Virus record (IMG/VR): IMGVR_UViG_3300028840_001395
Location: 62,001-126,000 of that record
DNA from: a virus
DNA: 64,000 bases
Strand: one strand, 5' to 3'
The translations under genes were made by a program, and so were the position numbers. Numbering within the stretch: the stretch's first letter is position 1; the number at the start of each line of letters is the position of its first letter. Below, piece after piece: positions 1-22,841 of this stretch. Under the pieces are notes generated by a model, which did not search any database, was not told the DNA's origin, and worked only from the letters and a program-made list of their open reading frames with translations.

Positions 1-1540
1 CCACGGGAACCTGCTGGTGATACTTCTGGATGGTCTTGGCCTCGTTGACCACCTTCCGGCCCAGGTAGGCCTTGAGCTTGCCCCCGGCGACGGACTTGGG
101 GGTCTCCGCGCCCTTCTTGATCTTGTCGCCTAGATTCTTCCCGGCCTCGTAGGGGGGACGCTTGAGGCCGGACTCGGAACCATCGAAGCTGAGGCCCATC
201 AGCGCGGAGTTGAGGATGTCGAAGGGCTCGATGGGCACGCTGTAGGTTCTGGCGGTCGCCTTGATCGCCATCTCCAGGATGCCATACATCCCCGAGTACT
301 TCTTGTCGAACCACTCCGGCTGGACAGAGAAGCCGTTGTCCGCGAACCAGGCCCGTGCCTGGTCGAGTCCACGCTGGCCCTTGTCGAACCAGGTGCCCAC
401 CTTGACTCCGGCAGCCCCTTCGAGCACCTGGGCGCGGAGCATCTTGTCGTAATCGTCCGCCATCGAGGCCAGAATCCAGCGTGCGGCGACTCGGAAACGG
501 GCATCCTTGATGCTGGCTGCCCTGAGCAGCTTGAGCACGGTTCTCGCGGTCTTGATGTTCATTTCACACCTATCCGATCTTGATGCCTTACGTCGGCGGA
601 ACTTCTTGGAAAAGAGTATCTCGGGGTCAGGCCTCTGTTGGAACCAGGGGAGCCCTTCCATCTCGTATCGCTTCTGGAGCTGTGCCTGGAGACTCTGATT
701 GGCCCAAAGGGCGTCGAACACCCTTCGCCAAGCCCTTGGCCAGTACTTCTGGCTCAAGTCCTGTGGGAGGACTCCGGCTCGTTGAGCGACTTCCTTCTTC
801 GGGGGGATACGCTTCTCGGTCTCCACGATGTCGAGCCAGGTGTTCATCACCTCTTCGGTGCGGCCCGTGCCCGCCCAGGTTTTCCTCATGAAGTCGCGGA
901 TCTTCCTGCCCAGTGAATCTTGAGGTTGTCTGAAGATGATCTCCAAGAGGAAATCTCCGGCTTCCTCATCGCTGGCTGGCACAGGGGCGTCGTAGTCTTC
1001 AGGCAGGGATTCAAACTTCTTCTGTCGATTGGCCTCGGTGTATATCCCTCTTACCATGTAGCCCTGAAGGTCACGGTTGGCGGCCACGTTTGGACTCATC
1101 CTTCCAGAGAGGATAGCCTCAGCCTGATTCTTCCCGGCCTCGAAGACGGGACGCGACTTCTTCAGCTTCTCCGGGTCGATGATGCTCAGACCCATGAGGT
1201 AGTCGTGGATGACCTCGTAGGGGTCGAGCGACAAGTTGAGCCTCTTGAGTGCCCGCTGGATCTCCTTCATCACGATGTTGTAGACCACGGTGGAATCCAT
1301 GTCGAACCAGCGAGGGTCGAGTTCGTATCCTCGGTCGAGGAAGTACTTCTCGGCCTGCTGGAGACCCTTCTTTCCACGCTTCCACCAGGTATCGGGACGG
1401 ACTCCAGCGACCCCTTCAAGCATCTGCGTCCGCATGAAACGGTCGTATTCGGTGGACATCGAGGCCAGAATCACCCGAACACGGGGGTCTGATCTCCCGA
1501 GGAGCTTGATGATCGCTGCCGCTACACGAATATCCATCAT
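1..1540 (-). CDS. Duplicated-domain protein, C-terminus beyond window
   Basis: Reading from ATG 1540 the frame stays open to the left edge, so at least 513 codons; the end is outside the window. Two related units lie in one frame: the first from residue 1, the second from an internal Met at 562 (about residue 327). Both share the order RVA..., ILASM..DYD/EYD, ML(R/T)..LEG.AGV..TW(W/F), a W-F-D step and (Y/A)LMGLS. The linker of about 150 residues has no duplicate. The short elements RVAAAIIKLL and RVAARWILASM recur in neighbouring proteins. No known family recognised. The second unit could be an internal start, but there is no stop between the units. Last gene of the minus-strand block seen here. 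Confidence 0.7.
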   Translation of the reverse strand, partial: MMDIRVAAAIIKLLGRSDPRVRVILASMSTEYDRFMRTQMLEGVAGVRPDTWWKRGKKGLQQAEKYFLDRGYELDPRWFDMDSTVVYNIVMKEIQRALKRLNLSLDPYEVIHDYLMGLSIIDPEKLKKSRPVFEAGKNQAEAILSGRMSPNVAANRDLQGYMVRGIYTEANRQKKFESLPEDYDAPVPASDEEAGDFLLEIIFRQPQDSLGRKIRDFMRKTWAGTGRTEEVMNTWLDIVETEKRIPPKKEVAQRAGVLPQDLSQKYWPRAWRRVFDALWANQSLQAQLQKRYEMEGLPWFQQRPDPEILFSKKFRRRKASRSDRCEMNIKTARTVLKLLRAASIKDARFRVAARWILASMADDYDKMLRAQVLEGAAGVKVGTWFDKGQRGLDQARAWFADNGFSVQPEWFDKKYSGMYGILEMAIKATARTYSVPIEPFDILNSALMGLSFDGSESGLKRPPYEAGKNLGDKIKKGAETPKSVAGGKLKAYLGRKVVNEAKTIQKYHQQVPV

Positions 1541-1628
1541 CCACCCACACCAGGTTCCTGTCTTTACAGGGATATAGGCGGGCAACCGAAAAAGTTGTCG
1601 CCTCCCCCCGATTTCTTGGTGTCAGAGG

Positions 1629-1656
1629 TTGACTTGTCAGGGGGGTCTGGTATTGT
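1629..1656 (+). promoter_or_regulatory. Sigma70-like promoter for sigma-like gene
   Basis: TTGACT, 16-bp spacer, TATTGT. It lies about 105 bp before the start at 1762, leaving a leader of roughly 100 nt in which I see no ORF. Confidence 0.5.
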
Positions 1657-2910: not shown

Positions 2911-3257
2911 GGAAGATCCAAGAACTCGTCCTCTTCATCTTCGGGCTCTGGCGGAGGATTGGCCGCGAGCATCTCCGCATCCTCCTCGCTCATCACCTGC
3001 ATCTCCCGGCACACCGGGTCAGCGAGAGCCATTCCGGGCATGTCATAGAGCCCGCTGGTGGGGATCTTCTGCCCTGTGGCGACGAACTGCCGGACGAAGA
3101 ACAGGATGATCTGGGCCACGTCGTCGGTGGTGAACCCGTGCGTGGCCATGCTCTGGGTGAATCCGACCGTGTTGGCGTTGATGCCCTTGGATCGCAGCGG
3201 CTGCCCCGCGAGCTGCTGGATGTAGGCTTCCCACTCTTCCAACGTCTGCAAGACCAT
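2907..3257 (-). CDS. Hypothetical protein with acidic tail
   Basis: 116 residues; starts in a TGATG overlap with the stop of the helicase gene, so probably translationally coupled. Contains a predicted helical core (ATHGFTTDDVAQIILFFVRQ) and a Pro/Glu/Asp-rich C-terminus (PPPEPEDEEDEFLDLP). Its stop overlaps the convergent sigma-like gene by 4 nt. No family recognised. Confidence 0.75.
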   Translation of the reverse strand: MVLQTLEEWEAYIQQLAGQPLRSKGINANTVGFTQSMATHGFTTDDVAQIILFFVRQFVATGQKIPTSGLYDMPGMALADPVCREMQVMSEEDAEMLAANPPPEPEDEEDEFLDLP

Positions 3258-6200
3258 CAGGCTTCTCCGGACTTGCCCACGAAGGGCGACATCATCAGCT
3301 CCGCCACCTTGTCATCCAGGTCAGCCAGGGACGCATCCCGCTGAACCATCTCGGCCCACTTGCCCCCAAGCTCGGTCTTCATGGACTCGATCATGATGTC
3401 GTCAAAGACCTTCTTCCCGACCGCCTGCTGCGCCGCCTTGATCTGGTCGAGCGTCAGGTCGTGCTCATCACGGGGCTTCCCATCATCGTCGTCCGCCGAG
3501 TAGGTCGCGTCCAGGGTGAACTCATCAACCGGGTTCTTCTGACCCTGCCGCCAGGCTCGGGCCGTCCTCTGCTTCATCGTCTCTGACTGGGCGCTGTCCC
3601 GGTCGAGGTGAATCACCGTGTCGAACATCTGGAGGTTCAACCCGTAGGCGTACTCGGAACCCAACAAGACTACGGCCTTGATACCCTGGTCAGGGCCGAT
3701 GACCTGCTCGAAGGCGAACGACTGCCACATGTCCGGCCTGTAGTACTTGTTGTCCGTCATGTTCCGCCTGACCAGCGGGTGAGGCTTGTACTTCTTCTTC
3801 CGCAGCGGGAGGGGGATGACGGACACTTTGCCGCCCTTGTCGAAGTCAGCCTTGGTGACCGACTTGACGAGCCTGTCCCTCATGGACGGGGTGCGCTCGA
3901 ACACAACCTCCTTGAGAGGCGTCGTGCCCTGGTAGATATAGATCTTGTCCTTCAGGGCCACGGCAACCTTGCCGCCCATCTTCTGTCCGAGGAACTTCAC
4001 CGCGTCCATGCAGAACTCAGGGTCGTCCGCGAACAGCAACGCCCGGCTCGGGTTCGGCCCTCGCTGTGTCTGGGCGAGCTTCTGGGTGACGATCCTCTCG
4101 GCCTCTTGGAGCTTCGGGTTCTCCATCTGACGGGCGACCTCTCGAAGCTCTGCCTCGGTGGCCATCTTCCGCCACTTGGTCACGACTCGGGACAGAATCC
4201 GAGGGATGGGCTCGCCATCCGGCATCCGGTTCGTCCCGACCATCGTGGCGATGGTCTCCAGGGCCTTCTCGGGCCGGTTGGACAGATCTCGCATGAGCTT
4301 GACCACGGGCCGGAACTCCAGGCGGGCGAACCGCTTGACATCCTCTCCGCCCGTCCCGGCTCCGCCACCTTCCGTCCACTTCTTCGCCAGGCCGAACATG
4401 GTCTTGGAGAACTGCCTGGTGAGCGTCTGGTAGGCGTTCTGCACCGTAGGATCCATCTCGATGGCGACAGGGGTTCGGGTCGGCTTGTCCAGAACCTTCC
4501 CCTCGGGGTCAACCACATCGGACTTCTCGGCGTAGAACACGTTGCGCTTGACCCACTGATCAAGCTCACGCTTCAAGGAGGGATCCTCCTTGACCCCGAC
4601 CACATCGCCGCCCACGGTCTCGCAGTACCGCTTCTTGAAACGGCGCTTCACGGCCTGGGCTTCGCGGACAGCCTGGGTCTGGGCCGCGTTGTCACCTGGG
4701 AGGCTGAACGTCCGGATGTTGTTGGACACGGCAGCCAGGATGTAGGCTTCCATCGGCTCCTTGTCCATCGGGCTGGCCGTGAAACAGACCTTGCGGGGGT
4801 GCCAGAGCTTGAGAGCAGCCTTGGACGCCTGGTTGGTGCCCTTGAGCTGATGGGCCTCATCGAAGTAGATGGAGATGTAGAACTTGGCGTCGAACCTGTA
4901 GCCTCTGTCCTTCCAGAACTGCTGCTTCCGCAGACGGGAGTTCTTCGGGATCCTTCCGTGCTTCTGGGCTCTCCCGAACTCCTTGTAGTCCATGATGTCC
5001 ACCCGCTCACGCAGGGCTGCGGGGTCTGACATGAACTTCACGGCCTGCGAGGGCAGGTTGCCCTTGAGATGCCTCGGGCAGACGTAGAGGAAGCGCCCGT
5101 TGGTCTCGATCTCCTCACCATCCGGGGTCGTGTAGGAGGCACCCTCCTCGGCCATCCCGTCCCGGAGCAGCTTCTGCATCGCCGCGATGGCGGTCAGAGT
5201 CTTGCCGATTCCGGTGTCGAGCGCACAGACGCCCGAGCCACCGTTGGCATCGAGCCACGCCAACGCCTGCTTCTGCTTGTCGATGAGCTTGGTACGTGGA
5301 CGGAATCCACCAATAGCCTCCGCCGTGTAGTGCGGGAGGTTCTCCTCGGTGGTGGCCCTATCGGAGTAGGCCTGCTCCTGGGTGTACTTCTGCATCATCT
5401 CCATCGCGGACTGGGAGAGCGACATGCCCGCGAGGTTGTCCATGATGGTGGCGTAGTCCTTGGGGTCGAAGTAGAACTCTGCCGCCCGGCTACCGGGAAC
5501 CTTGTGGTAGGAGATGCTCTGGATGCAGTTACCCTTGGGGCTCGGCACGTTGCAGGCCAAGGCCTTGATCGCATCCCGGATTTCCTTGTCCGTGTTCCTC
5601 CCCGAGATACGCATGAACAGCTTCTTCGTCTTCTTCTTGACCCGCTTGCCCTTGATCACCATCGTCTCGGTCATGTCCGCGACCGTGGTGTAGGGCTCAC
5701 GCTGGGCCGGGTCGATGCGCTTGGGAGCCTTCCCCTTGCGGCCCGAGATCGGGCTGTAGGTGTAGGCCGTACCCTCGATCATCCGACCGAGGCCATTCAC
5801 CATGTCATCGAGGAAGATGCCCTTGTAGCGACCACCGACGATGACCTTGACCCCCTCATAGCGGAGAACGTCCCCTTCCTCATCCAGAATGGGCACCTGG
5901 GTCACCTTCGTCGGGAACACGCGGGTCAGCTTGCCCTGCTTGGCCAGGTCATCCGTCAGGGCGTCCCACTGCACATCACCGTCGAGGGCGTCCACTTCGC
6001 CCTCGGTGAGCATCCGCATCTTCTTGAGCGGAACCTCTGTTCTGGTCGAGATCAGTGCGAGCCTGGTGCGAGCCTTGTCCTTGCCCCGCATGTGCTGGCT
6101 GTACTGCTGCTCCGCTGTGCCGTCCCAGTTCCACTTTTCCTTGCCGGTCTCGGGGTTGATGACCCGGACAGGGGGTGGGCCTCGGAACTCGGTTCCGTCA

Positions 6201-6898
6201 CGGGCCAGGATGACGTGTTCCTTGGTCTTGGGGTCGATGCCGACGAGGATGGGCTTTCCAGCGAGGGGCTTGCGCTCGATCACGAGGCCCTGGGCCTTCA
6301 TGTGAGCTTCGATGTTCTCATCGATCTCTGCGAGGGTCTTCTTGCGCTTCACCGTCAGGGCGTAGGACTCGGGATCGGTGTCCCGCATCTTCTCCCGGCG
6401 CTGCTGCTTGGGGGACAGAGGGAAGAAGATGGCCCACCGCTCCATCCCCTTCTGCCGGGGCTTGAGGTAGATCTCCTTGTCACGGGCGACCTGGATGAGA
6501 AGCGGGACAAACAGTTCGTTGAGTTGCCGCCAGTGAGTGGGGCTGAGCATCCCCTGCCGGACGAGCCGGGCGAAGTGAATGTTGAGATCAGACCTCAGCT
6601 CTGCGATCTGATTCGTGATGGCCGGGGAGACGTTCTTCCCATCCACGGGACTCGTGATCTGGTTGAGCCGGTTCGTCGCCCTCCTGAACTGCATCCGAAG
6701 ATCGTCAGGGATGGGGTATCCCCGATTGATGGACTTCAACAAACCGTAGAAGTTGAAGAACTCCAGACCCTTCGGGGTAAACGCCTTGCGGAGACGCTGC
6801 ATGATGGGTCGAGAGAATCCCGGCAGGAGCTTGGGCTCGTCCTCATCCCCCTCGGGGGCTCCCAGACGGAGGATGGGCCTATCATGCGGGTAGATCAC
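3257..6898 (-). CDS. SNF2/DEAH-type helicase-like ATPase, very large
   Basis: 1,213 residues. Superfamily 2 motifs are visible: Walker A DTGIGKT near residue 560, DEAH in IYFDEAHQLKG near 677, motif III-like FTASPMD near 710, and motif VI-like QRTARAWRQGQK near 1113. The last, with the long insert between the two RecA-like halves, points to the SNF2 branch rather than DExH RNA helicases. The first ~540 residues hold no motif I recognise. Expected role: ATP-driven remodelling of or translocation on DNA. It sits in the operon of presumed virion or co-packaged proteins rather than in a replication cluster, which raises the possibility that it is delivered with the DNA. Coupled to the downstream 116-residue gene by TGATG. 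Confidence 0.85.
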   Translation of the reverse strand: MIYPHDRPILRLGAPEGDEDEPKLLPGFSRPIMQRLRKAFTPKGLEFFNFYGLLKSINRGYPIPDDLRMQFRRATNRLNQITSPVDGKNVSPAITNQIAELRSDLNIHFARLVRQGMLSPTHWRQLNELFVPLLIQVARDKEIYLKPRQKGMERWAIFFPLSPKQQRREKMRDTDPESYALTVKRKKTLAEIDENIEAHMKAQGLVIERKPLAGKPILVGIDPKTKEHVILARDGTEFRGPPPVRVINPETGKEKWNWDGTAEQQYSQHMRGKDKARTRLALISTRTEVPLKKMRMLTEGEVDALDGDVQWDALTDDLAKQGKLTRVFPTKVTQVPILDEEGDVLRYEGVKVIVGGRYKGIFLDDMVNGLGRMIEGTAYTYSPISGRKGKAPKRIDPAQREPYTTVADMTETMVIKGKRVKKKTKKLFMRISGRNTDKEIRDAIKALACNVPSPKGNCIQSISYHKVPGSRAAEFYFDPKDYATIMDNLAGMSLSQSAMEMMQKYTQEQAYSDRATTEENLPHYTAEAIGGFRPRTKLIDKQKQALAWLDANGGSGVCALDTGIGKTLTAIAAMQKLLRDGMAEEGASYTTPDGEEIETNGRFLYVCPRHLKGNLPSQAVKFMSDPAALRERVDIMDYKEFGRAQKHGRIPKNSRLRKQQFWKDRGYRFDAKFYISIYFDEAHQLKGTNQASKAALKLWHPRKVCFTASPMDKEPMEAYILAAVSNNIRTFSLPGDNAAQTQAVREAQAVKRRFKKRYCETVGGDVVGVKEDPSLKRELDQWVKRNVFYAEKSDVVDPEGKVLDKPTRTPVAIEMDPTVQNAYQTLTRQFSKTMFGLAKKWTEGGGAGTGGEDVKRFARLEFRPVVKLMRDLSNRPEKALETIATMVGTNRMPDGEPIPRILSRVVTKWRKMATEAELREVARQMENPKLQEAERIVTQKLAQTQRGPNPSRALLFADDPEFCMDAVKFLGQKMGGKVAVALKDKIYIYQGTTPLKEVVFERTPSMRDRLVKSVTKADFDKGGKVSVIPLPLRKKKYKPHPLVRRNMTDNKYYRPDMWQSFAFEQVIGPDQGIKAVVLLGSEYAYGLNLQMFDTVIHLDRDSAQSETMKQRTARAWRQGQKNPVDEFTLDATYSADDDDGKPRDEHDLTLDQIKAAQQAVGKKVFDDIMIESMKTELGGKWAEMVQRDASLADLDDKVAELMMSPFVGKSGEA

Positions 6899-10300: not shown

Positions 10301-11592
10301 CCGCCCGCGAAGTAGATGATCTCGATCTTCTTCGACCCCTGCATCACGAAGGCGGGGGTGTACTTGTAGAGGCCGATGCCCCGAGGCTTCATGCCGTCCG
10401 GGAACTGCACCGGCTGTCCCGACTTGAACTGGACGAAGACGGCCATGCCCTCGACGCCGACCACGACGCCGACCTTGCCGTCGTTCTCCTTGTAGATCTC
10501 GTAGGTGTCGGCACTGCTCGGGTGCTTGTCCGCCCGGACGTACACATCGTCACCGACCGCGAAGCGGGGCTTGCCCTTCTCGCGCTTGATGGGCGGCAGG
10601 ATCTCCTTGAGGCCCGCCCGCTTGAGCGCCCGGATGACCTCGTTCTGGCTCATCACGGGCTGGTTGACGGCCCACTCGATGAAGTCCTTGGTCACCTGGT
10701 TGATGGCCTGCTTCTCGGTGCTGGCCATGCGCTCCAGGTCAGCCATCGCCCCCTTGTCGAACTTGTCCTTGTACTTCTCGGTGTTGGCGTTCCATTCGTC
10801 GCACTCGGCCTCGGACATGTTCTCGCACGGGTCGGCAGGCTTGCCTTCCTCGAAGCGACCCATGATCTCGTCACCGTCGATGGCGACGACTTCGGCCTCG
10901 TTCATGTCATCGTCCGGCACCAGGTAGGCGAAGACGAACGACCCGCGACGTTCTTCGAGGCCAGGGATGAGACTGCCTTCGCCCTCGGGAAGATCGGCGT
11001 CCTCGTCAACGTGTCCGGTCTCCCAGGTCGCCAGCTTCTTCAGTTCGTCCATCGCACTCATGGTCTTGGCCTCCCTATCCGGTGCGTTCGGGGCATCCGG
11101 CTGACTCTTGAACTTGTCCTTGTGCTGCTCGTGCATCACCGTCCACCTGTCGGCAGCTTCGGGATTCCCGTGCTCCTTCAGGTAGGTCGGGACATCCACG
11201 GGCTCTCCCTCGGGGAACCGGGCCAGAACCCACGACCCCCGGCGGAAGTTGGTCTTGAAGCCCCGGAGATGATCCTGAATCCACTTCTTCGTGATGACGT
11301 GCTCCGAGTGGGGGTCAACCTTCTCCAACGTCGCTCCGACGTACTCGAAGGTCTTCCCCCGCTGCTTCGACTCACCCCAGTCGAGACCCTGGGGAGCCAG
11401 TCGAAGCTCACCACGGGCGGCACGGAGAAGCTGCTCAACCGCGTGGCTGAGCTTCTTCTTGGCCTTCTCCATGCTCCACTGATCCTTGATGCCCACGAGG
11501 CCCAACGTCACGTCCAGAAAGCTGTCGCGGACGTTGATTGCCCCGAGTCCGGGGTCAATCATCTGACGTTGGAGGGCTTCCTTCTCGCTCAT
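7345..11592 (-). CDS. 1,415-residue multi-domain protein with internal repeats and DUF2958
   Basis: Mosaic protein. A ~45-residue unit is repeated (GRFEEGKPADPCENM... ending TEKYKDKFDK) near residues 245-290 and 590-640. Near residues 970-1070 is a good DUF2958 domain (GRGTWLITEFDGRD, FGLADLGFPELGYVSLSELE, FRPMPLSE), a family best known from plasmids and mobile elements. The C-terminus has two related Lys/Arg-rich units, each beginning LYGF. K/R-T-A tripeptides (GKTAGYTN, PRTASKR, QRTAAREP, GKTAGNAK, AKTADL) lie between the apparent units and could be processing sites. The start overlaps the upstream stop (ATGA). Function unknown; it may be a polyprotein of co-packaged factors. Confidence 0.75.
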   Translation of the reverse strand: MSEKEALQRQMIDPGLGAINVRDSFLDVTLGLVGIKDQWSMEKAKKKLSHAVEQLLRAARGELRLAPQGLDWGESKQRGKTFEYVGATLEKVDPHSEHVITKKWIQDHLRGFKTNFRRGSWVLARFPEGEPVDVPTYLKEHGNPEAADRWTVMHEQHKDKFKSQPDAPNAPDREAKTMSAMDELKKLATWETGHVDEDADLPEGEGSLIPGLEERRGSFVFAYLVPDDDMNEAEVVAIDGDEIMGRFEEGKPADPCENMSEAECDEWNANTEKYKDKFDKGAMADLERMASTEKQAINQVTKDFIEWAVNQPVMSQNEVIRALKRAGLKEILPPIKREKGKPRFAVGDDVYVRADKHPSSADTYEIYKENDGKVGVVVGVEGMAVFVQFKSGQPVQFPDGMKPRGIGLYKYTPAFVMQGSKKIEIIYFAGGKPTKDQQVAVQQYMGRGRSVAKSANYYTGHAFSARYAKDGTVYFQLFPQQRRQVDPQKGPSEAGYAVRSFNPSKGQVHYLGIFGKRPRGWEQELDDMRAGSMVMASMGALERLAGSVLGPGVPDGTGPHSGTPDCQMAGLEDPDGSELPGDEMLGRFEEGKPADPCENMTDEECEEWRNNTEKYKDKFDKDKSASMGKTAGYTNYWKIKEPFTPDEWNVIKLAAAKAWDQGRRMKKIPPKSPVWDKAFAGYVAENGVVLKGQNGSGRPEITDEFIAFNGDGSARIDVEIESVGGRTFPYSTDLAHEDFFFENKKGGGFCKTERKPYDMAVASVLWWAKKTAPKKIDVSTDDGRPVKIWASDKQAVAEVNRVEDGPFNYILYEDRGRGEIAVSSMGRFIYDRDWDARGDRERVMAQARKLLGLPRNWKDGDRIPSSAKVAFDKQAAEIADVSERAFNWFSEVGKKFDSLPWEKAIDGLGRAISNKGRAEDVLDDFTDLDKAKMNSMLSKGGEKKLKKWLKDTFQKRGSMDEVPARKRMTARKQMLLPKNIRSKIPKLYSQEDNPDPIAWVKFFNAYGRGTWLITEFDGRDTMFGLADLGFPELGYVSLSELESLEKMPGLQQIERDTSFRPMPLSEAAKKNGIRWSPPRTASKREGEKKNWIPKDLEKGRCTPGSPNYDCPEGSPQYNLAQTFKKHPEWGEKGGKHAARDRMTQREAKSQSPVMELLELPHMGYETGGWIRVNDMTRHFQSKEQLQAEIKKLARRGLIKVSPDGRSIKKLALQRTAAREPGGLYGFPKKIQADCESASRKLAKAAITTAKAAYRKDERVARFLATHAERSGSLSAQILVKAMQEIGPKVAAEIKKQARLAELRAERGVEAAEKPEKVEGKTAGNAKYGLYGFKAKTADLGLKSCNAIRREAGRIASDLHGRRAEKHARITEFLRNRSKRGRCLYSRMLVRSYPDAEMKVASVKPASVNEWLAWED

Positions 11593-12566
11593 GGCTTCCT
11601 CGCCTTGCGTCCCAGATACCGAGCAGCGATTCTATCCGCTGCCGTCTTCGGCGGACGGAACAGATCAGCTTCCGAACGCATCCGGGCCTGATACAGATTC
11701 CGGCGGATAGTGGAGAGCTGCTTCTCCGTCAACTTCCGCTTCTTTTGAATGAGATCCCGCATGGCGGACATGAACTTGTTGTTCGGCCTCTGCGCCAGAT
11801 ACGTGTCCAGCACTTGCAGATGATCCTTGCCGAAACTCATCTCGACACGGGGCTTGGGAGTCTTCTTCGGCTTCTTCAGCGGCTCCGGGGGCTTGTCCCG
11901 CAGACCCATCTCATAATCGGCCCAGTCGAGATTATACTGGTCTTGCTCTGTCCAACGCCGACCCCGAGGTCTGCCGTATCCCTCATCATCGATGACAGTC
12001 CGATGTCTCTTGCCTCGCCAGTCCCGGTAGGATCCGGCTGCCGTCTTGGAAGCGACCATCTGCCGACCCTCGGGGCTGATCTCAGGCTCGATGGCCATCG
12101 CCGGACGCCGGACGAGATAGTTCGGCCACTTCTCGAACCACTTCTTGTAGAAGTCACCCTTGGGAACGACCCGGACGGTCTCATCCGGGTCGGGGATGTT
12201 CGGGTCAGCTACATGGACGTTGAGGTCGTCATCCACATCGAACACGACCGAAGCGTGCGACCAGTCCCGGCCCTCGGGGTTCCAGGCGATCATCAACGGG
12301 ATGCCCCGGTCGGTGAACTCCTTGAGTTGCCGGACGGTGGCGGGGCAGATGAGATGAACACGCGCGCCGTAGTGCTGCGCGCACGCGATAGCGTCCTCCC
12401 AGGAAGCACCCTGCATGGGCTTCGCGCCCATCACCCGGTTGACCTCATCCTCGTTGGTGTCGATGTCCAGCGCCCGGAGGCACATCATCATGGACGTGGA
12501 CATGCACGAGTACTGCGTCCGTTGGCGGACCGGGTTGACGTTCGCGGCAGCCTGCTTCTTCATCAT
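11589..12566 (-). CDS. C39/papain-like cysteine peptidase with C-terminal RIAARY motif
   Basis: 325 residues. Residues ~10-130 look like a peptidase C39-type fold: Q15 and C21 in RQRTQYSCMSTSMMMCL, a helix, then His in DWSHASVVFDVDDD and Asp in HVADPN as plausible triad partners. Members of this family cleave leader or precursor peptides, often after small residues. The rest is basic and unassigned; it has SKTAAG near residue 173 and ends PPKTAADRIAARYLGRKARKP-like. Two ATGs in tandem directly follow the upstream stop. In this operon it is a candidate maturation protease for the neighbouring proteins; that role is inference. Peptidase activity has not been shown, and the domain could be degenerate. 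Confidence 0.6.
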   Translation of the reverse strand: MMKKQAAANVNPVRQRTQYSCMSTSMMMCLRALDIDTNEDEVNRVMGAKPMQGASWEDAIACAQHYGARVHLICPATVRQLKEFTDRGIPLMIAWNPEGRDWSHASVVFDVDDDLNVHVADPNIPDPDETVRVVPKGDFYKKWFEKWPNYLVRRPAMAIEPEISPEGRQMVASKTAAGSYRDWRGKRHRTVIDDEGYGRPRGRRWTEQDQYNLDWADYEMGLRDKPPEPLKKPKKTPKPRVEMSFGKDHLQVLDTYLAQRPNNKFMSAMRDLIQKKRKLTEKQLSTIRRNLYQARMRSEADLFRPPKTAADRIAARYLGRKARKP

Positions 12567-14141
12567 CTACCCGTTGATATAGTCGTGCCAGGGGCCGTAT
12601 TCGTCGTCGTAGCCAAACCTATCCTCGGGATCAGGGAAGTCTCTGGCGGATTCCGCATCGACCTCGAAGTCACTGGGCTTGAGTTCGATCTTGGCCAGCA
12701 CATCGAACCAGATCTGACGACCCTGGGGCTTCGCCACCACCTTGGGCGTACCGACCACCTTCGCGTTGAGATGATTCGGGAACACGTACTCATAGAAAGC
12801 CCCGATCCCCCCATCCATCCAGAATCGCCAGCTCTGCCGGAGGCTGTCCTCGAAGATGTGGGAGCCGCTGAGGATGTTCTTCATCCCGTCAACCAGCAGC
12901 TTGAAGAACATCTTGGCCGACCGGCCCTCGAAGAGACCGAGAAGCTCTGCCCGAAACCCCTTCTCGTCCGCCACAAACCGCTTCAGGGCGAGTCGAAGCT
13001 CGGTGACGAATACCCGGATGTTGACCGGGATCTGGTAGGATGCCTGGATAGCAGTGGGGTATTCGTAGCGTTCGTAGCCCAGTTCTTCCAGCGTGACAGA
13101 GGACTCCTGAAGTGCCTTGAATCTGCCTACATCGACTTCGTAATCGCCGTTGCCGTAGTCCATCGGCTCCGAGAGGTCTTCCCAGATGCAGGTCTCCAGG
13201 GCCTCTATCATTGCTGGCCCGAAAGCCTTGAGAAGCTGTGAGTAGTTGGTCGTGTAGGGCCGCAGAGGTTCGAGCATCGGGCCGAGAACCCGGCGGATGT
13301 CGGCGGCCTCCTTGATGGTCCGCCCCCACTGGGTAGCGAGCTTGACTGGGGTCTTCTCCGCGAAACGCCGGACATCGTGGTAGAGGTTCTCCAACCACGC
13401 ACCCGAAGTCAGCGGGTTGTCAGAACCCCCGCCCCAAGTGGGTTTCCCGCCCATCATCTTGAGCTTGGCCTCGTAGTTCCGCTGCATCTTCTTGAAGAGG
13501 GGGATGACCGTCCTCTCGGTGTCAAGGAACGCTTCGACCTGGCCCGCAGCCATCATCTCCAGGGCTGACACGATGACCAGGGCGTCCCGGTGCAGGGACT
13601 TGAGAGCCCGGTTCTGGGTGATGTGCTCCTGGAAGGCGTGAATGAGCTTGGTCGCCCAGCGGGTGTAGTGCTTGATGTTCAGCGAGGCATAGTCACTGCG
13701 GCTCGGGAAGGCGTAGGAGAAGGACTCCGTGTACGTGCCCTTCTGCGCCCGCTCCCACCCACGCTTGGGATCCTTCATCACGGCGTCGTATTCACGCTTG
13801 CCGAGACCGATGATGTGGTTGATGAGGTCGGAGAACCCGTCATCTCCGACCCCGAAGGACATGTCCTCTGCGTCCCCCCAACGGTCGAGCCGGTCGTAGA
13901 GGTCATCGAACAGTTGGCTCCGGATGTTGCCCAGCGCCGCAGCTTCCTGCGGGCTGTACTTGAGCATGATGGCCTTCTCGATGGCGTCGGTGTCGGTGGT
14001 CTTGGTACCCCAACCGATCTTGTCCACGAGCTTCCAGAAGTCCGACAGAGAGACCCTTGCTGCTGATATCCAGTGAGAAGCAACGCGGACAGCCGATGTC
14101 TTGCCTTGACTCATCGCAGTGACAGCCTGCTTCCGATTCAT
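12567..14141 (-). CDS. Hypothetical operon protein with RVASHW and TIKEA motifs
   Basis: 524 residues, mostly helical, rich in Trp and Tyr; no family recognised. Start at 14141 chosen because GAGGTGA precedes it by about 6 nt and the upstream gene stops 5 nt earlier. N-terminus includes QGKTSAVRVASHWISAARVS, shared almost exactly with the next upstream protein. Residues ~285-300 carry QWGRTIKEAADIRR. Acidic C-terminus. Likely a structural or co-packaged protein, by company only. Confidence 0.7.
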   Translation of the reverse strand: MNRKQAVTAMSQGKTSAVRVASHWISAARVSLSDFWKLVDKIGWGTKTTDTDAIEKAIMLKYSPQEAAALGNIRSQLFDDLYDRLDRWGDAEDMSFGVGDDGFSDLINHIIGLGKREYDAVMKDPKRGWERAQKGTYTESFSYAFPSRSDYASLNIKHYTRWATKLIHAFQEHITQNRALKSLHRDALVIVSALEMMAAGQVEAFLDTERTVIPLFKKMQRNYEAKLKMMGGKPTWGGGSDNPLTSGAWLENLYHDVRRFAEKTPVKLATQWGRTIKEAADIRRVLGPMLEPLRPYTTNYSQLLKAFGPAMIEALETCIWEDLSEPMDYGNGDYEVDVGRFKALQESSVTLEELGYERYEYPTAIQASYQIPVNIRVFVTELRLALKRFVADEKGFRAELLGLFEGRSAKMFFKLLVDGMKNILSGSHIFEDSLRQSWRFWMDGGIGAFYEYVFPNHLNAKVVGTPKVVAKPQGRQIWFDVLAKIELKPSDFEVDAESARDFPDPEDRFGYDDEYGPWHDYING

Positions 14142-14146
14142 CCGGT

Positions 14147-14635
14147 TCACCTCAAGAAGTACTGGCACATCTCTTGGACATGCTTCCGTGCTTCTGCGAG
14201 AACCTCCTGGGGGTTCTCCCAGATCATCCGATCCTTCGTCTTCATCCGTGTACGGGTTCCGATTCCCCCCTGGAACGTCCCGAACCACGGTTCGGACTTC
14301 CTGAGAACTCTAGGCGCACCACGCACAAGAACATCGCGCCTGACCTCATGCAGACTGACGACATTCTCCGTGGTTTCGCCAGTCTTGGGATCAGTTACGA
14401 GTGCTGGGGTTTTCAAGGTCACAGATCCACCGGCTACCCGAGAATCCGCCCAGCGAGAAGCAACACGGACAGCCGATGTCTTGCCTCGGTTCATCCAGGC
14501 ATCGTTGACGATCTTGAAGAAGCCCCGGCGCTTCAACTCCTGCACGGTGTCGTCCAGGCCCGCCTTCTCCAAGGCTCCCTTGAGTGCTGCCAGCACCTCG
14601 GGGGCGTTGAACTTGTTGAGCGCCTCACGTCTCAT
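14147..14635 (-). CDS. Hypothetical operon protein with GKTSAVRVASRW motif
   Basis: 162 residues. ATG 14635 overlaps the upstream stop (ATGA). Residues ~50-65 read RGKTSAVRVASRWADSRVAG, matching the N-terminal element of the downstream gene, so the element is internal here. The remainder is a short soluble domain ending in a helix with VLAEARKHVQEMCQYFLR. No family recognised. Confidence 0.7.
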   Translation of the reverse strand: MRREALNKFNAPEVLAALKGALEKAGLDDTVQELKRRGFFKIVNDAWMNRGKTSAVRVASRWADSRVAGGSVTLKTPALVTDPKTGETTENVVSLHEVRRDVLVRGAPRVLRKSEPWFGTFQGGIGTRTRMKTKDRMIWENPQEVLAEARKHVQEMCQYFLR

Positions 14636-16239
14636 CGGATCACCCTCATCCGCTTGAGAGCCCGCATGTCGTGCTTCTGCCACGCCTTGTCGATGGCCTG
14701 GGACTCCTTGCGGTGATCCCACGCAATCTGGCGGAGCGACTCGATGGCCTCCTTGATAGTCCGACCGATCTCACCCATGTAGCGGTCGTCGGAGTCCTCG
14801 GAGGCCATCACCTTCTGGATGTACTGTATCTCACGTCGGGAGAGAACCTGATGGCTGGCCAGCGTCCGCAGATCCCACTTCTTCCAGGCTTTCTCGATCT
14901 CGTCGGCCATCTCGTCGTTCTCGACAGCCTCGCTGTTGTGGAACTGGATGGCCTGCTGAATCTTCTCCGCCTCGTAGGACGGAATGGGCTCGACCCGAAG
15001 GGCCATTCTGCCAGAGGCCAGCCTGACCACGGCGACCTGGGTGTTCCGCTTGAACCGGATGTTGACCGCCGAGAACCCGGCCCGCATGGCGTCCGCCTTG
15101 TTGATGGGCTTGCCGTCCCACCGGGAGGTGATGTCCTGAAGGATGAAGTCCTTGCCCGCCTCCCAGTCCGCGATGGCCTTGGCCTTGGAGGTGTAGTCCC
15201 GTCCGTAGGCCGGAGTCACGACGATGTGCTTGGCCTGAAGGTAACGGGCAGCAACCCGCGTGGCATGGCCGTGGACTCTCTTCCCGCCCTTGGCATTCTG
15301 ACCCTTGGTGGTGATCTTCATGGCTCCATTCCGCATGATCTTGATGAGACCCATCTTGGCCAGTTCGATGAGGAGGGGGTTCTTCGGGCTGTACTCGCCC
15401 AGGCGGTGGCTCCTGAAGTACTCCTTACGGTAGCCGCTCTTGATTCCACTGATGATGGCCAGGGCCGTCTTCTGATCCTCGGTGATGTCGTCCTCATCTC
15501 CGGCCCCCAGGAGCTTCGTCAGGTTGTCCGGATGAGCCTTGATGGTCGCGTAGGTGGGCTGACCCCCTCCCACGACACCACTGATGACCACGTTGTTCGG
15601 TGGAATGGGTCGGGGCTTCGTGTCCAGGTCAACGGGGTTGTCGGGGTTGAACATGTTGGCCCCACCCCAAGACCCCCACTCGACCTGGTATCGGCCCGTC
15701 CCCAGGTTCACAGCGATGGTGAATCCTTGCCGACCTGCCCCCGAGAGGGAGGACATCTGGTAGGTGCGGGACTCTACGACCATGATGTTCTTGCGACCGT
15801 ATTTGACCTCCCGGAGTGCCTTCTGGATGGGGGCCGGAAGCTCGCGTACATCCACGTAGACTTCCTTGCGGGCCTTCTTCAGATGACGGACAGCGACCCG
15901 AGCAGCAGCCTTCCGCTTCTCGTGACGCCAGGCGGTGCCCTCCACCTTGTCGCAGAGAGAGGCGCAGAAAGCTCCGGGATCGACCCCCTTGCCTTCCATC
16001 TCCTTGATGCACTTGGTCACCTTGTGCTTCACGTCCCCGGTCATCGAGTCCCAGAACTTCTTGACCGACTCGTCTGTCCAGCCCTTCGGGAGCTTCCCCT
16101 CCCACTTGGCCGCTTCCTTGTAGCTCTGGGTCAGGAAATTCCGCACTTCGGGCTCCTGCCGGGCCAGCTTCAGGAAGGCCATGTCGGTCGCAGAGCGAAG
16201 GTTGAAGAACCCAACTGGGGGGAGAATCCATCTAGCCAT
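14632..16239 (-). CDS. Hypothetical operon protein with two RVA(A/V)R motifs
   Basis: 535 residues from ATG 16239, which has AAGGA 7 nt upstream; an in-frame ATG at 16296 is possible but less well placed. KAAARVAVRHLKKARKEV (about residue 117) and HGHATRVAARYLQAKHIV (about 330) divide the protein into three parts. The middle part is Gly-rich and beta-like (TIAVNLGTGRYQVEWGSWGG). The C-terminal part has IGRTIKEAIESLRQIAWD. No enzyme motif seen. First gene of this sub-block after the divergent HU-like gene. Confidence 0.7.
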   Translation of the reverse strand: MARWILPPVGFFNLRSATDMAFLKLARQEPEVRNFLTQSYKEAAKWEGKLPKGWTDESVKKFWDSMTGDVKHKVTKCIKEMEGKGVDPGAFCASLCDKVEGTAWRHEKRKAAARVAVRHLKKARKEVYVDVRELPAPIQKALREVKYGRKNIMVVESRTYQMSSLSGAGRQGFTIAVNLGTGRYQVEWGSWGGANMFNPDNPVDLDTKPRPIPPNNVVISGVVGGGQPTYATIKAHPDNLTKLLGAGDEDDITEDQKTALAIISGIKSGYRKEYFRSHRLGEYSPKNPLLIELAKMGLIKIMRNGAMKITTKGQNAKGGKRVHGHATRVAARYLQAKHIVVTPAYGRDYTSKAKAIADWEAGKDFILQDITSRWDGKPINKADAMRAGFSAVNIRFKRNTQVAVVRLASGRMALRVEPIPSYEAEKIQQAIQFHNSEAVENDEMADEIEKAWKKWDLRTLASHQVLSRREIQYIQKVMASEDSDDRYMGEIGRTIKEAIESLRQIAWDHRKESQAIDKAWQKHDMRALKRMRVIR

Positions 16240-16322: not shown

Positions 16323-16383
16323 AGGGAAATCACCGGGTAGAGTGGAGCCATGAGCTGCATCACCCAGAAGCGGAGTGACGACA

Positions 16384-16653
16384 ATGACCTATGAGAAGCT
16401 GGTGACTCAACTGTCGGAGATGACGGGTCAGCCCGAGGAGGCTGTCCGGAATATCCTCTTTGCGCTGCCTGATGCCCTCATCAAGATGGATGAGAAGGAC
16501 GTGGTTCGGACTCCGATGGGGGTGTTCCGTATGACCAAGCGGGCCTCGCGGAAGATCAAGCCGCCCAAGGGCGATCAGGTGGTCACGGTGCCGGAGGAGA
16601 TGGTCGTGAAGTTGCGGGCCGGAAAGCGGCTGCGGAAGCCGGTGGAGGGCTAG
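16384..16653 (+). CDS. HU/IHF-like DNA-binding protein
   Basis: 89 residues. The N-terminal helices (YEKLVTQLSEMTGQPEEAVRNIL) and the turn before the beta arm (VVRTPMGVFRMTKRASRKIK) follow the HU/IHF pattern, including the PxxGxF step. The C-terminus VVKLRAGKRLRKPV matches the closing helix of HU. It would bend or compact DNA. Start at ATG 16384 with GGAG 8 nt upstream; a GTG at 16375 is in frame but overlaps that site. Transcribed against its neighbours; convergent 4-nt overlap with 16650-16925. Confidence 0.8.
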   Translation: MTYEKLVTQLSEMTGQPEEAVRNILFALPDALIKMDEKDVVRTPMGVFRMTKRASRKIKPPKGDQVVTVPEEMVVKLRAGKRLRKPVEG

Positions 16654-16925
16654 TTCAAGCTGTCGTTGGGGTCAGACACTCCGGCGACGATATCGACTCC
16701 AACATCCATCCCCAGATCGACTCCATCTGCGAGCCCCTCGCCGTAGCCCGTCTGAAGACCCAGACGATAGCCCAACGCCAATGCCTCCTCCGGAGAATCC
16801 GGGGTCTCGACATCCTCGGGAGGCCGAAGATGAAGAAGGCTGAGGAACCGCCCCCACAGGGTCGGTTTCTTGGCAGCGAGCACGCGATCACCAGAGATCA
16901 TACTACGGGCCTCCTCCACCCCCAT
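16650..16925 (-). CDS. Hypothetical small protein with Gly-rich repeat
   Basis: 91 residues from ATG 16925. A Trp/Leu-rich N-terminal part (LWGRFLSLLHLRPPED) is followed by a glycine-spaced stretch (ALGYRLGLQTGYGEGLADGV, then DLGMDVGVD) with a G every 2-4 residues, possibly a membrane-interacting or repeat segment. No family recognised. Confidence 0.55.
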   Translation of the reverse strand: MGVEEARSMISGDRVLAAKKPTLWGRFLSLLHLRPPEDVETPDSPEEALALGYRLGLQTGYGEGLADGVDLGMDVGVDIVAGVSDPNDSLN

Positions 16926-19024: not shown

Positions 19025-21982
19025 CTACTTGATCTTCCTCTTCCCTGTATATCCCAGCGCCTTGCGGAACTCCTTGACGGCCTTGACCCACTTGGCCCGC
19101 GTGGTGGGGATGCGCTTCAACTCGTAGAAGAAGCGAGTGTTGTCCATGATGCCCCGGTAGAGGGTCTTGTCCTTGTCGGACTTCGCGGCAACTCCTGTAA
19201 AGAAATCAATGGCTTTGTTCTTCTGGGCCTTGGTCTTCAGCTCCGAGATCTGCCCCTTGAACTCATCGACGGCATCATCGAGTCGGGTGTAGAACTCGAT
19301 GTCATCCATCGCGTGGAAGTCGAAGTCCTTGGGATTCTGCTTCACCACCCGGCCATGCCCGAAGTCCCGGTCACCGAACCCCTGCTCCCTCAGCTCCCTG
19401 AGTGCGTGCTGCAATTTGGGGTCATCCTCACGGAAGCCCTGGCTCCTGGGATTCATCCATTGCTGATACTGGGGTGTCCGCAGCTTCTTCGGAGGCAGAC
19501 CCGCCTTGCCACCCACTGCATCGGAGAGGAAGCTCTGGGCGAAATGCTGGCTCTCATGCCGGACGATTCTCCGAAGCTGGTTGCGGCTCCAGTCGTAGAT
19601 GCTGTTGGGCAGCGTGATCTTCATCGTCCTGATGATGTCCGCCCAGGTCGCCAAGGCCCCGGGGATCTCATCAGTGGTCAGGATGACTCTGACCTTCTGG
19701 AAGGGGGTGATTGGCTTGCCCGCCTTGAGGGCCTTGACCTCGGCCCGGAGATCCTTGAGTTCTTGGATCTCGATCTTCCTGAGCTTGGCCAGGCCAGGAT
19801 CTAGCTTCTCACCCCGAGCCTTGAGGGCCTTGATCTTCTTCTCGTCGTCCTTGTTCCACTGCTCCCGCATCTTCAGCCGCTTCTCTGCTCCGGCCAGATA
19901 CTTCTTGATGCGGCCCTGGTCGGCCAGGATGCCCTCGTACTTCCAGCCCTTCAGGAGCGGGGCCACCTCAAACTCCCGCTCCACGTTGCCGGGGGTGGCC
20001 TTCTTGTACTCGGACACCTGGAACTTCTTGAGGTGGGCCTTCTCCTTCTCCAGACGCTCGTTCTCCCCAGCCCCCCACATCTGCTGGGCGTTGACCCGTT
20101 CCTCGATGCCCTTGAACATGCGATCCATCGTGGCGGCGAGCTTGCCCTCACGGTAGAGCTTGTAGAAGTCCCGCGACTTGATGCCGGGTCGCCCGGGGAC
20201 ACCCACGGCTGTCCAGGCGAACTGGCTGGTCACCAGATGCACGATGCTGTTCTTGCCCTTCTGGCCCGCGTACATCTCCCAGAGGGCCTTGGGCTTGGTC
20301 TTCGCTCGGAGGGCCTTGCGGAACGCGGTGAAGGCCTTCTTGATCTTCTGGCCTTCCTTCTTCTTCTCGATGTCCAACTGGCGGTTGTATTCCATGCTCT
20401 TGTCGATGTCCGCCATGATCTTCGTGGCAGCTACCGACAAGGCCCACTTGGAGATCTCTTCGACCATCAAGGGCGGGGCTTCCAGGCGACCCGACGTGCG
20501 CTGGCTTGTCGCTCCAATCCACCTGGCGGCGACCCGGACAGCCACATCCTCATCTTCCAGGTCATCGAGGATGTCCTGCAACGAAGCCGTCTTGCCCAGC
20601 GCCTTCTGCACGAAGGTCTGGGGGTCGAATAGCAGCTTGGTCTTGCCGCCCAGGATGGCCTTCTCCAACGTGTCGGCCACTCCGCCTTGGCTCAGGAAGC
20701 GCAAGATGATCTCGGGGTTCACGTAGGAGCGGATGGTCGTCGCCACATCCTCGTGGCTCAACGCCTCCTGGGCCTTGTGGTAGGCCGCGTCGAGCGTCGC
20801 TGCGATCTCCTGGGCGACCCGTTCGGCCAGGTCGTCACCCTGCTTCTTGGAGAAGCCCTTGATTCTGGCGTAGAGTTCGGCCTGAGCTTCGCGCAGGTTG
20901 TCGAGGACGGTCTCGGTCGCCTTGAGCTTGCGGAAGTCGGTCGGGGAGAAGTCCCCGAGCTGCTCCCGAAAGTACCGCTGCAGGTCGGTGTAGGTGAACT
21001 GCTGACCCTTGGAGGTCGTGAAGATGAACTTCGACCCGCCCTTCTTCGCCTTCTCCACGTAGTCCTTGAGGATCTTGACGATGGAGGCGTCCGAGAGGTT
21101 GGCGACGTTGGTGCCGCCCTTCTTTCCGAGGAACTCCATCGTGACGAAGTTGTTTCGGACGAACTTGACGTGCTTGGGGCCGAGGGTGATGGCCCCGAAG
21201 GTCTCGATCTCGACCTCCTTGCCGTCCTGAATCTTGACGACCTTGTTGCCCTCCTTGCCGGGCCGGATGCCAGTCTCCATGATGATGGCGGTGATGAGGG
21301 CAGCCATCTGGGTCAGTTCATCGCTGCTCTTGAGGTCTTTCTTCACCTGGCGGGCGATCTTGTTGTAGTGCTTGATGAGCTTGTGCATTTTCTGGATCTT
21401 CTTCGCCAGCGTCAGATGCTCGTTCTCGAAGCGGTCGGTGACCTTGGAGATCACCCCGCTCTCGTCCACCTCAACCACGATGTTCTTCGGCAGGAACGCC
21501 CGGATGTCCTCGGGCACGACCTCCCGCAAGGGGGCCTGACTCTCCGCGATGGCGATGGCCTCAAAGCCCTTGTCGGCCTGCTTGCCGACCTCGACCAGCA
21601 CCTTCTTGAGCGGGAACTTGTTGGGGTAGCAGAGCCGGTTCCTCGCCTGATACAAGACCTGGGAGCGCCACGACTTCGCCTTGGGATTCTGTGCCTCTGA
21701 CCCTATCCAGGTGTTCAGGTAGTTCTCGACCTGGGGGAGCACCTTGATCATCTTGATGAAGACCCGTCCCCTGCGGGAGAGGCTCACCTTGTCCTTGCCG
21801 GGCTGGGCGGCGTTGGCCTGGTCAGCGTAGGGCTGCAGCTCCTTCAGGAGCGCCTTGAAGGCATTGAGAGCGCCCTTGATGTGCTTCTCACGGGCCTTGA
21901 TGTCCGCCTGCCAGGCCCGGCTCTCGGGCGTAGGACGCCGAGCACAGACCCAACGGGCAGCTACTCGGGAGGCCGTGGTCAT
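19025..21982 (-). CDS. Topoisomerase IB-like domain fused to HExxH metallopeptidase-like domain
   Basis: 985 residues. Start ATG 21982 in an ATGA overlap. Opens with MTTASRVAARW. Residues ~200-430 carry type IB topoisomerase signatures: METGIRPGKE with the first catalytic Arg near 237, LGPKHVKF...MEFLGKKGG, FSPTDFRKLKAT (compare the family's KDFRTW), and SYVNPEIILRF near 419, which matches the SYIHP site of the nucleophilic Tyr. A second RVAARWIGATSQ near 484 separates this from a charged, helical half. That half contains RRIVRHESQHFAQSF (HExxH zinc motif, H-E-S-Q-H near 811) and a distal FDFHAMDDIEFYTR. Role: relaxing DNA, and possibly a peptidase. The fusion is unusual. Confidence 0.75.
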   Translation of the reverse strand: MTTASRVAARWVCARRPTPESRAWQADIKAREKHIKGALNAFKALLKELQPYADQANAAQPGKDKVSLSRRGRVFIKMIKVLPQVENYLNTWIGSEAQNPKAKSWRSQVLYQARNRLCYPNKFPLKKVLVEVGKQADKGFEAIAIAESQAPLREVVPEDIRAFLPKNIVVEVDESGVISKVTDRFENEHLTLAKKIQKMHKLIKHYNKIARQVKKDLKSSDELTQMAALITAIIMETGIRPGKEGNKVVKIQDGKEVEIETFGAITLGPKHVKFVRNNFVTMEFLGKKGGTNVANLSDASIVKILKDYVEKAKKGGSKFIFTTSKGQQFTYTDLQRYFREQLGDFSPTDFRKLKATETVLDNLREAQAELYARIKGFSKKQGDDLAERVAQEIAATLDAAYHKAQEALSHEDVATTIRSYVNPEIILRFLSQGGVADTLEKAILGGKTKLLFDPQTFVQKALGKTASLQDILDDLEDEDVAVRVAARWIGATSQRTSGRLEAPPLMVEEISKWALSVAATKIMADIDKSMEYNRQLDIEKKKEGQKIKKAFTAFRKALRAKTKPKALWEMYAGQKGKNSIVHLVTSQFAWTAVGVPGRPGIKSRDFYKLYREGKLAATMDRMFKGIEERVNAQQMWGAGENERLEKEKAHLKKFQVSEYKKATPGNVEREFEVAPLLKGWKYEGILADQGRIKKYLAGAEKRLKMREQWNKDDEKKIKALKARGEKLDPGLAKLRKIEIQELKDLRAEVKALKAGKPITPFQKVRVILTTDEIPGALATWADIIRTMKITLPNSIYDWSRNQLRRIVRHESQHFAQSFLSDAVGGKAGLPPKKLRTPQYQQWMNPRSQGFREDDPKLQHALRELREQGFGDRDFGHGRVVKQNPKDFDFHAMDDIEFYTRLDDAVDEFKGQISELKTKAQKNKAIDFFTGVAAKSDKDKTLYRGIMDNTRFFYELKRIPTTRAKWVKAVKEFRKALGYTGKRKIK

Positions 21983-22575
21983 CCCAGCCTGCGGAGCCAG
22001 CGGGCAGCGACCCTCGTTGCCACGACCTTGCGCCACTTCGACCAGCCCTCGTCAGCCAACCCTTGCACATCTTCTTCGGTGCAGACCACCTCATGGGGGG
22101 TCGCCCGGACAGGATGGGCCACGAAAGACTTGTCGAGGCCCTCCACGAAGCGAGCGATCTTCTTGATGTTGTGGAGGTTGTCCTCCCAGACATGGACGGT
22201 ATCGATCTGGGGATGCTTGGCCAGGATACCAGATACCACGGCCACCTTGTAGCCGCCCGTCGAGTCCCCGGGGTTCAGATAGACCTCATCGAAGTTGAGT
22301 CCCGCCTGCTTGAGCAGTTCACCGACACGCAGGCGGTGGGCGCTCTGAAGAGGGCGACCTGTGCAGAGGATGGCCCAGGTGTCCCGGTCGCTGATGCTCT
22401 GCTTGGCTGCCTGGACGGTCTTGCCGATCCACCAGTCGCGGCCCGGCTTGAGGGGAACGCAGGGAGGCCCCAGTGACTCGGGGGCCATGATCCAAGAGTC
22501 CTTGCCCCACCAGTCGGGGCGCTGTGGCGACCGGAAGAGAGTGCCGTCGAAGTCGTAGAGGTGGAGTTCGGCCAT
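21979..22575 (-). CDS. HAD-superfamily protein of Swiss-army-knife (HAD_SAK) type with C-terminal RVAARW
   Basis: 198 residues. HAD motif I is LYDFDGTLFRSP at the N-terminus; WW pairs and ILCTGRP (motif II-like) follow, then LNFDEVYLNP, a Lys in GGYKVAVV and VHVWEDNLHNIKK (motif IV-like). This pattern matches the HAD_SAK group, some members of which belong to RNA-repair proteins. The last residues are VVATRVAARWLRRLG, the motif shared by this operon, here at the extreme C-terminus. Overlaps the next start by 4 nt. Likely a phosphatase or hydrolase; substrate unknown. Confidence 0.7.
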   Translation of the reverse strand: MAELHLYDFDGTLFRSPQRPDWWGKDSWIMAPESLGPPCVPLKPGRDWWIGKTVQAAKQSISDRDTWAILCTGRPLQSAHRLRVGELLKQAGLNFDEVYLNPGDSTGGYKVAVVSGILAKHPQIDTVHVWEDNLHNIKKIARFVEGLDKSFVAHPVRATPHEVVCTEEDVQGLADEGWSKWRKVVATRVAARWLRRLG

Positions 22576-22841
22576 CAGATCTTCATCCGCTTGAGCTTGG
22601 CGATCTGCGGCCCCAGAATCTTGCCGACCTGGCGCATGACGCTGGCGGACTCTGCCACGTCGGGATGTCCATCGGCCAGGCCCGGAGTGCGGCCCTTGGG
22701 TGCCCAGTGGATGAGGACTTCCTCGATGTCATCGAGGGCCTTGTCGAGCTTCTTGACGCCCCAGTCGAGTTCCTTCTGGGCTTCGGTTGCCCCCTGGCGC
22801 TGAAGATGGCGGGCGGCGACTTTCTTGGCGAGGGCATCCAT
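22575..22841 (-). CDS. Small operon-leading protein with KVAARHLQRQG motif
   Basis: 88 residues. GGAGG lies 6 nt before ATG 22841. Begins MDALAKKVAARHLQRQGA, another copy of the operon's motif, followed by a helical body (LDWGVKKLDKALDDIEEVL). TGATG overlap with the HAD gene. No family recognised. It is the first gene of the 19.0-22.8 kb unit; no strong promoter is obvious upstream. Confidence 0.7.
   Translation of the reverse strand: MDALAKKVAARHLQRQGATEAQKELDWGVKKLDKALDDIEEVLIHWAPKGRTPGLADGHPDVAESASVMRQVGKILGPQIAKLKRMKI

Follow-up and report, generated by a model that had tools for sequence, protein, structure and literature searches.

Introduction

In phage T4, the capsid-targeting sequence (CTS) is a short peptide present on the unrelated internal proteins IPI to IPIII and Alt, and it is thought to bind the prohead core, leading to the packaging and injection of these proteins (PMC5694885, PMC7411985). 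P1 DarB, a huge multidomain anti-restriction protein, is sent into the head by an N-terminal signal that also works on a reporter protein (PMC9024508). In the phiKZ-like phage SPN3US, the ejection proteins gp47, gp53, and gp54 have long propeptides thought to target the prohead, and the N-termini of gp53 and gp54 are identical (PMC5694885). The polyvalent proteins of phages and conjugative elements, giants with peptidase, ParB-nuclease, and anti-host domains, have been predicted or argued to be packaged and injected (PMC5512222).

The proteins that huge phages inject beside their DNA are mostly unknown. Here, we analyze a 64,000-nucleotide stretch of viral DNA (the window), bases 62001 to 126000 of a 435,804-bp (435.8-kb) virus record, in which a first-pass annotation had noticed a short motif shared by neighboring proteins. 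We describe two peptides, tag A and tag B, which we propose by analogy with T4 and P1, at a probability of about 0.6, to be capsid-targeting signals by which injected proteins enter the prohead.

The phage and its relatives

Since the record encodes a major head protein (MCP), head maturation protease, portal, large terminase, and contractile sheath, it belongs to a tailed jumbo phage. Its MCP shares 87% identity with the MCP of the uncultured phage LR745208.1 (485 kb), 49% with that of Tunturiibacter phage Tunturi_5, and 38% with that of Bacillus phage G. LR745208.1 is a relative of the phage, and Bacillus phage G a more distant one. More than 500 IMG/VR contigs are related to the record. Six records were compared, namely, this one, LR745208.1, a 536-kb relative, a 619-kb relative (539 kb examined), phage G, and Tunturi_5. 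Genes of the record were called with a simple coding-potential model on 20-kb slices, which gave 463 genes, some of them with approximate starts or cut at slice borders owing to this home-made procedure.

Tag A is a peptide-level motif shared by unrelated proteins

Ten copies of RVAxR[W/Y/H] in eight proteins had been pointed out by the first-pass annotation, and all of them lie in coding frames. A six-frame scan of the 64-kb window with [RK][VI]Ax[RH][WYH] gave exactly ten matches, all on the minus strand between 493 and 22823, in genes 65, 71, 72, 73, 74 (two copies), 79 (two copies), 80, and 81. The remark that the motif is confined to the block 1-22841 was correct for the window, the other 41 kb of which contain no copy. 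In the whole record, this block (record 61-85 kb) is not unique, further tag A carriers being found at record 9-31 kb, 180 kb, 252-269 kb, 311 kb, and 431-435 kb.

All of the following window genes are on the minus strand. Gene 65 (1..1540, with its 3' end before the window) encodes a protein of 695 aa in the record, composed of two similar repeats, the second of which contains RVAARWIL (473-493); no Pfam or PHROGs match above threshold was obtained for it. Gene 71 (11589..12566), a C39-like cysteine peptidase (PF13529, E 1.3e-8), has a C-terminal tag, RIAARYLGRKARKP, that ends at the stop codon (11613-11633). The DUF4240 protein of gene 72 (12567..14141) has an N-terminal tag, GKTSAVRVASHWI (14067-14087), and gene 73 (14147..14635; 162 aa) contains GKTSAVRVASRWA (14447-14467). 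In gene 74 (14632..16239; 535 aa), RVAVRHL (15880-15900) and RVAARYL (15238-15258) are both located at domain junctions, and a weak tag B (FLKLARQEPEVRNFL) is located close to the N-terminus. Gene 79 (19025..21982) combines a topoisomerase IB domain (PF01028, E 2.7e-17) with a C-terminal HExxH motif (HESQH) and harbors an N-terminal RVAARWV (21947-21967) and an internal RVAARWI (20516-20536). Its likely start is the ATG at 21982, which overlaps the stop of gene 80 (ATGA, 21979-21982) and makes the first tag truly N-terminal (MTTASRVAARW). The HAD_SAK RNA-repair phosphatase of gene 80 (21979..22575) terminates with RVAARWLRRLG (tag at 21994-22014), beyond its HAD domain (residues 43-171 of 198). 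This tag is less than 70 bp away from the one at the N-terminus of gene 79, which is read in a different frame. Gene 81 (22575..22841; 88 aa) has the N-terminal tag MDALAKKVAARHLQRQG (22803-22823). Two giants encoded in the same block are untagged, a 1415-aa protein with DUF2958 (7345-11592) and a 1213-aa SNF2-like helicase (3257-6898).

In the predicted proteins of the record, the strict pattern occurs 21 times, compared with 0 times in reversed and 0.8 times (maximum 3) in shuffled proteins, and a tighter pattern, R[VI]A[ASVHRMLQ][RK][WYF][LIVA], occurs 17 times (0 reversed, 0.06 shuffled). The tag A profile, [SA]-x-[RK]-V-A-[AS]-R-[YWFH]-[LM]-x-[RKA] with the core RVAxR[YWFH][LMIV], gave 219 matches clade-wide at a score of at least 17 versus 4 in reversed and 0-2 in shuffled proteins; the profile was trained on the set that it scans, and it is therefore the regular-expression counts and the reversed and shuffled controls that matter. 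A six-frame scan of 0.9 Mb of relatives gave 38 matches, every one of them on the head module's coding strand. A helical wheel of tag A separates the R residues from V, A, Y/W, and L, which occupy the opposite face, and the hydrophobic moment is 0.59, compared with 0.31 in random windows.

The motif is short and the genome is rich in R and A, features that might favor chance, low-complexity bias, or a mobile in-frame DNA repeat as its source. This is hardly credible in view of the reversed and shuffled controls, the sense-strand-only matches in relatives, and the lack of a shared-codon excess: tag A copies use the same codon in 31% of cases versus 35% expected from codon usage. As codons are shared no more than expected, it is the peptide and not the DNA that selection conserves, and DNA likeness beyond that of the peptide, which would mark a mobile repeat, was not seen.

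Tag A is carried by 22 proteins of the record and 174 proteins across the clade. With the tags masked, BLASTP (E<1e-3) joined 0 pairs among the 22, in agreement with the earlier view that the carriers are mutually unrelated; two of them nonetheless belong to the same Pfam family, topoisomerase IB. We also considered the topoisomerase IB catalytic-tyrosine stretch (LSLNYKRVA) as the identity of the tag; this does not hold generally, since relatives have F or H in place of the Y and other carriers lack a topoisomerase domain. The shared amphipathic basic address tag that had been suggested is thus well supported, with chance, a DNA repeat, and homology of the carrier proteins excluded.

At the same score threshold of at least 17, this record encodes 22 tag A proteins, LR745208.1 and the 536-kb relative 13 each, the examined 539 kb of the 619-kb relative 9, and phage G and Tunturi_5 none. 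As the latter two phages have related capsid proteins but no such tags, the tags are dispensable for this capsid type, a point against packaging. At least one tag is present in 39 of the 48 MCP neighborhoods that exceed 8 kb. Searches of IMG/VR for gene 79 relatives with single-protein patterns yielded none that was confirmed, a DNA search of known phages with the gene 73/72 sequence gave 0 matches, and a description of tag A or tag B was not found in the open-licence literature.

The tags are portable

Tags are kept while the flanking linkers change. In the gene-20 family, adjoining the terminase, a tag is present in 23 of 23 complete members (0 in shuffles), and in the aligned proteins it is N-terminal in 12, C-terminal in 5, at both ends in 4, and internal in 2. 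In an AlphaFold model of gene 20, each end forms a helix, and low-confidence stretches connect these helices to the core. Members of the gene-461 family, encoded downstream of the MCP gene, consist of a conserved helical core, a linker variable in length and sequence, and then the tag, which becomes internal where a further domain has been added. In the AlphaFold model of gene 461, the tag is a separate helix (117-127) after the linker; as shallow alignments lie behind both models, the placement of the tag helices serves as supporting evidence only. A Foldseek search with the gene-461 model gave no significant match. The gene 80 homologue in L257, 47% identical, has ~17 fewer linker residues and keeps KVASRYL at its end.

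Across the clade, 71 tag A copies are C-terminal and 45 are N-terminal, versus ~28 and ~26 expected from length, and others follow variable linkers or lie between polyprotein domains. The tag is therefore not limited to N-termini, as N-terminal, C-terminal, and internal positions occur even inside one family.

Tag B and its exchange with tag A

A search for other shared peptides revealed tag B, LRSKLIRLAHENPELRPHLLPLLKE, which had been overlooked in the first-pass annotation. It gave 77 matches clade-wide versus 0 in shuffled or reversed proteins, and in INPHARED it was found only in LR745208.1, in 11 places. Tag B is mostly N-terminal and, in other carriers, C-terminal or internal. In the window, it is represented by MSQLREALIKLAGEVPETRKHLVPLLKK at the N-terminus of gene 115 (49946..50281, minus strand; 111 aa; tag at ~50198-50275, score 67), a peptide common to unrelated proteins of the same phage clade. 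Like tag A, tag B is a real peptide-level motif.

The two tags replace each other on homologous domains. The C-terminus of a SWIM-containing protein is tag A in gene 460 and several relatives and tag B in L085 (16730-19369). The gene 315 domain is followed by tag A, as it is in the 536-kb relative, and by tag B in L073 (17340-19082); in the same L073 protein, tag B stands before a domain shared with gene 74, and in gene 74 tag A does. A domain that starts with tag B in L237 (4920-5771) is preceded by tag A in L255 (14584-17622) and LR745208.1. A SAM-lyase-like protein of the anti-restriction type has a C-terminal tag A in L034 (1671-2459, plus strand), and its homologue in the 619-kb relative has an N-terminal tag B.

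In total, 13 aligned domain ends have tag B in one protein and tag A in a homologue, compared with 2.3 (maximum 7) for random tag A positions; a single family accounts for many of the 13, which leaves ~4 independent cases. A mirrored-position control gave a mean of 7.8 and a maximum of 12 and is less sharp, because mirroring leaves half of the tags in place. Being exchanged at the same ends of homologous domains, tags A and B probably serve one job.

Tagged accessory proteins and the head module

Tags are confined to accessory enzymes and small proteins, a class that is enriched in the head module. Domains recognized in the carriers include topoisomerase IB, poly(A) polymerase/CCA-like, 2'-5' RNA ligase, HAD_SAK RNA-repair, GNAT, C39 peptidase, inorganic pyrophosphatase, tRNA-ligase CPD, SAM-lyase-like, and ParB-like nuclease (tag B) domains, as well as HExxH-type metallopeptidase motifs. 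There is also a UvrD-type helicase, whose divergent tag (RVSKRYL) counts against packaging. Gene 11 (record 9266-16693, minus strand) encodes a 2475-aa giant between the head protease and portal genes, in which 2'-5' RNA ligase, poly(A) polymerase, HExxH, topoisomerase IB, and GNAT domains are combined with at least three tags at their junctions. Genes 11 and 79 both display the polyvalent-type mix of peptidase, nucleic-acid, and anti-host domains, and many other carriers are small single-domain proteins. The last tag of the gene 11 giant and its relatives follows a conserved acidic stretch plus LSxN[YFH]K, seen in L002 (~10997-11077), L037, L059, L073, L085, and L278. Topoisomerase IB and polyprotein tags may go back to common descent, which also counts against packaging.

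No even spread over non-virion proteins was observed: neither tag occurs in any of ~355 homologues, from all relatives, of 17 families. These families comprise MCP, decoration-like, scaffold-like, protease, portal, terminase, and sheath proteins; clamp loader, sliding clamp, exonucleases, SbcCD, UvsX, and RuvC; and RecD/Dda helicase, RNR, and a nucleotidyltransferase. Carriers make up 8 of 45 head-module genes versus 14 of 418 genes elsewhere (Fisher p=0.0005) and are clustered along the record (17 versus 4.5 expected). About two thirds of the record's carriers are located outside the head module, another point against packaging.

The gene order in nearly every readable relative is a gene-9 family member or a large carrier, the protease, an acidic protein, a decoration-like protein, and the MCP. 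The acidic protein, encoded here at L002 4704-6335 (minus strand) and by syntenic genes in relatives, has 24-33% D+E in most relatives and a net charge of -41 to -108, and it is a likely scaffold or core protein. It contains an EF-hand-like stretch, DTDNDGFVSQDEW, and its conserved C-terminus reads ELxKLWExAPDVSxVFG. Tags A and B, sought inside the acidic scaffold-like proteins as a self-association segment, are absent from them. The gene-9 family (L002 7950-8549, minus strand), conserved upstream of the head protease, has an N-terminal SH3/KOW-like part, a tag-like RVAxAFVKKALYWA, and then a C4 zinc ribbon.

Possible destinations of the tagged proteins

The first-pass annotation had read the motif as an address for the capsid or an intracellular compartment. 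The address itself stands, and the enrichment in the head module, together with the anti-host and RNA-repair cargo, points to the capsid as the best-fitting destination. Activities directed early against the host or at RNA repair, partly encoded among the head genes, and the untagged shell and replication proteins agree with the pattern that packaged and injected proteins should show. It thus seems somewhat more probable than otherwise that, in this clade of huge phages, two unlike, interchangeable peptides load dozens of proteins, polyproteins among them, into the head for injection, whatever their position in the chain. Tag A as a short amphipathic basic helix and tag B as a two-helix unit would dock on the internal core of the growing prohead, where they would most likely bind the strongly acidic, scaffold-like product of the gene between those for the head protease and the MCP. 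Tagged proteins would then be enclosed in the shell and enter the next host together with the DNA, and there RNA-repair enzymes, SAM lyase, peptidases, topoisomerase, and other "polyvalent" domains could act at time zero. The tags at polyprotein junctions would be those of individual modules, retained after gene fusion, and the head protease may also cut near tags. Two further observations weigh against packaging: no conserved cleavage site is recognizable beside the tags, and they have no sequence likeness to the T4 CTS.

A destination inside the cell, such as a replication body, phage nucleus, or condensate, would be suited to a portable, position-independent docking peptide, and a helicase and topoisomerases are among the carriers. 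This reading is the poorer fit, since enzymes of replication and recombination are without a tag: clamp loader, sliding clamp, UvsX, RuvC, SbcCD, RecD/Dda helicase, and RNR are all untagged, as are their homologues, although their genes lie between two tag clusters. Moreover, tRNA repair and SAM hydrolysis are cytoplasmic activities, and a search with the phiKZ nuclear-shell protein (gp54) gave no sequence match, a weak argument for a protein that diverges fast. We therefore consider a compartment address rather unlikely.

Cleavage by the head maturation protease was also considered, with the motif as a recognition site at which polyproteins are split and termini trimmed and with targeting secondary or absent. 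The protease gene is in the same module, up to three or more tags occupy the domain junctions of giants (gene 11 in G000, L059, L257), and the T4 and SPN3US signals undergo cleavage (PMC5694885). However, a cut 10 residues from the end would be useless to small proteins with a single terminal tag, the usual substrates (shell and scaffold-like proteins) are without the motif, and tags A and B are interchangeable despite being unlike in sequence, so that we regard a protease site as improbable. The amphipathic, basic character of tag A and its high hydrophobic moment would also suit a general docking code by which enzymes are assembled, such as those of an RNA-repair complex, or nucleic acid or membrane binding with no packaging at all. 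Such a role would leave the clustering of carriers with head genes and the variety of unconnected activities unexplained, and we give it little credence.

If the tags are packaging signals, as we favor, the injected proteome could be read from the genome sequence alone. In this phage, ~22 A-tagged and ~5 B-tagged proteins would be injected, most of them of unknown function, and they would be prime candidates for counter-defence; foreign cargo could also be loaded into very large capsids by means of these peptides. Whatever the destination, an interchangeable, position-independent two-tag system would be an unusual form of protein addressing for a bacterial virus.

Comparison with known targeting systems

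The signals of T4 and P1 set a precedent for the tags, which we view as analogous to them. As with the 22 dissimilar carriers described here, the T4 CTS is a short peptide common to several otherwise unrelated proteins. The CTS, however, is N-terminal only, is present once per protein, and is removed by gp21, whereas here two unlike tags are N-terminal, C-terminal, or internal, often several per protein, and are found on ~6% of the proteome. The SPN3US propeptides are N-terminal, more than 100 residues long (or 20), and cleaved after [A/S]xE, and their sequence is unrelated to that of the tags. The P1 DarB signal was described for a single protein, with no shared motif found on many cargos. 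The tagged cargo resembles the polyvalent proteins in domain architecture; for these, no shared packaging peptide was found in the portion of PMC5512222 considered, while the junctions of the giants described here carry recognizable tags.
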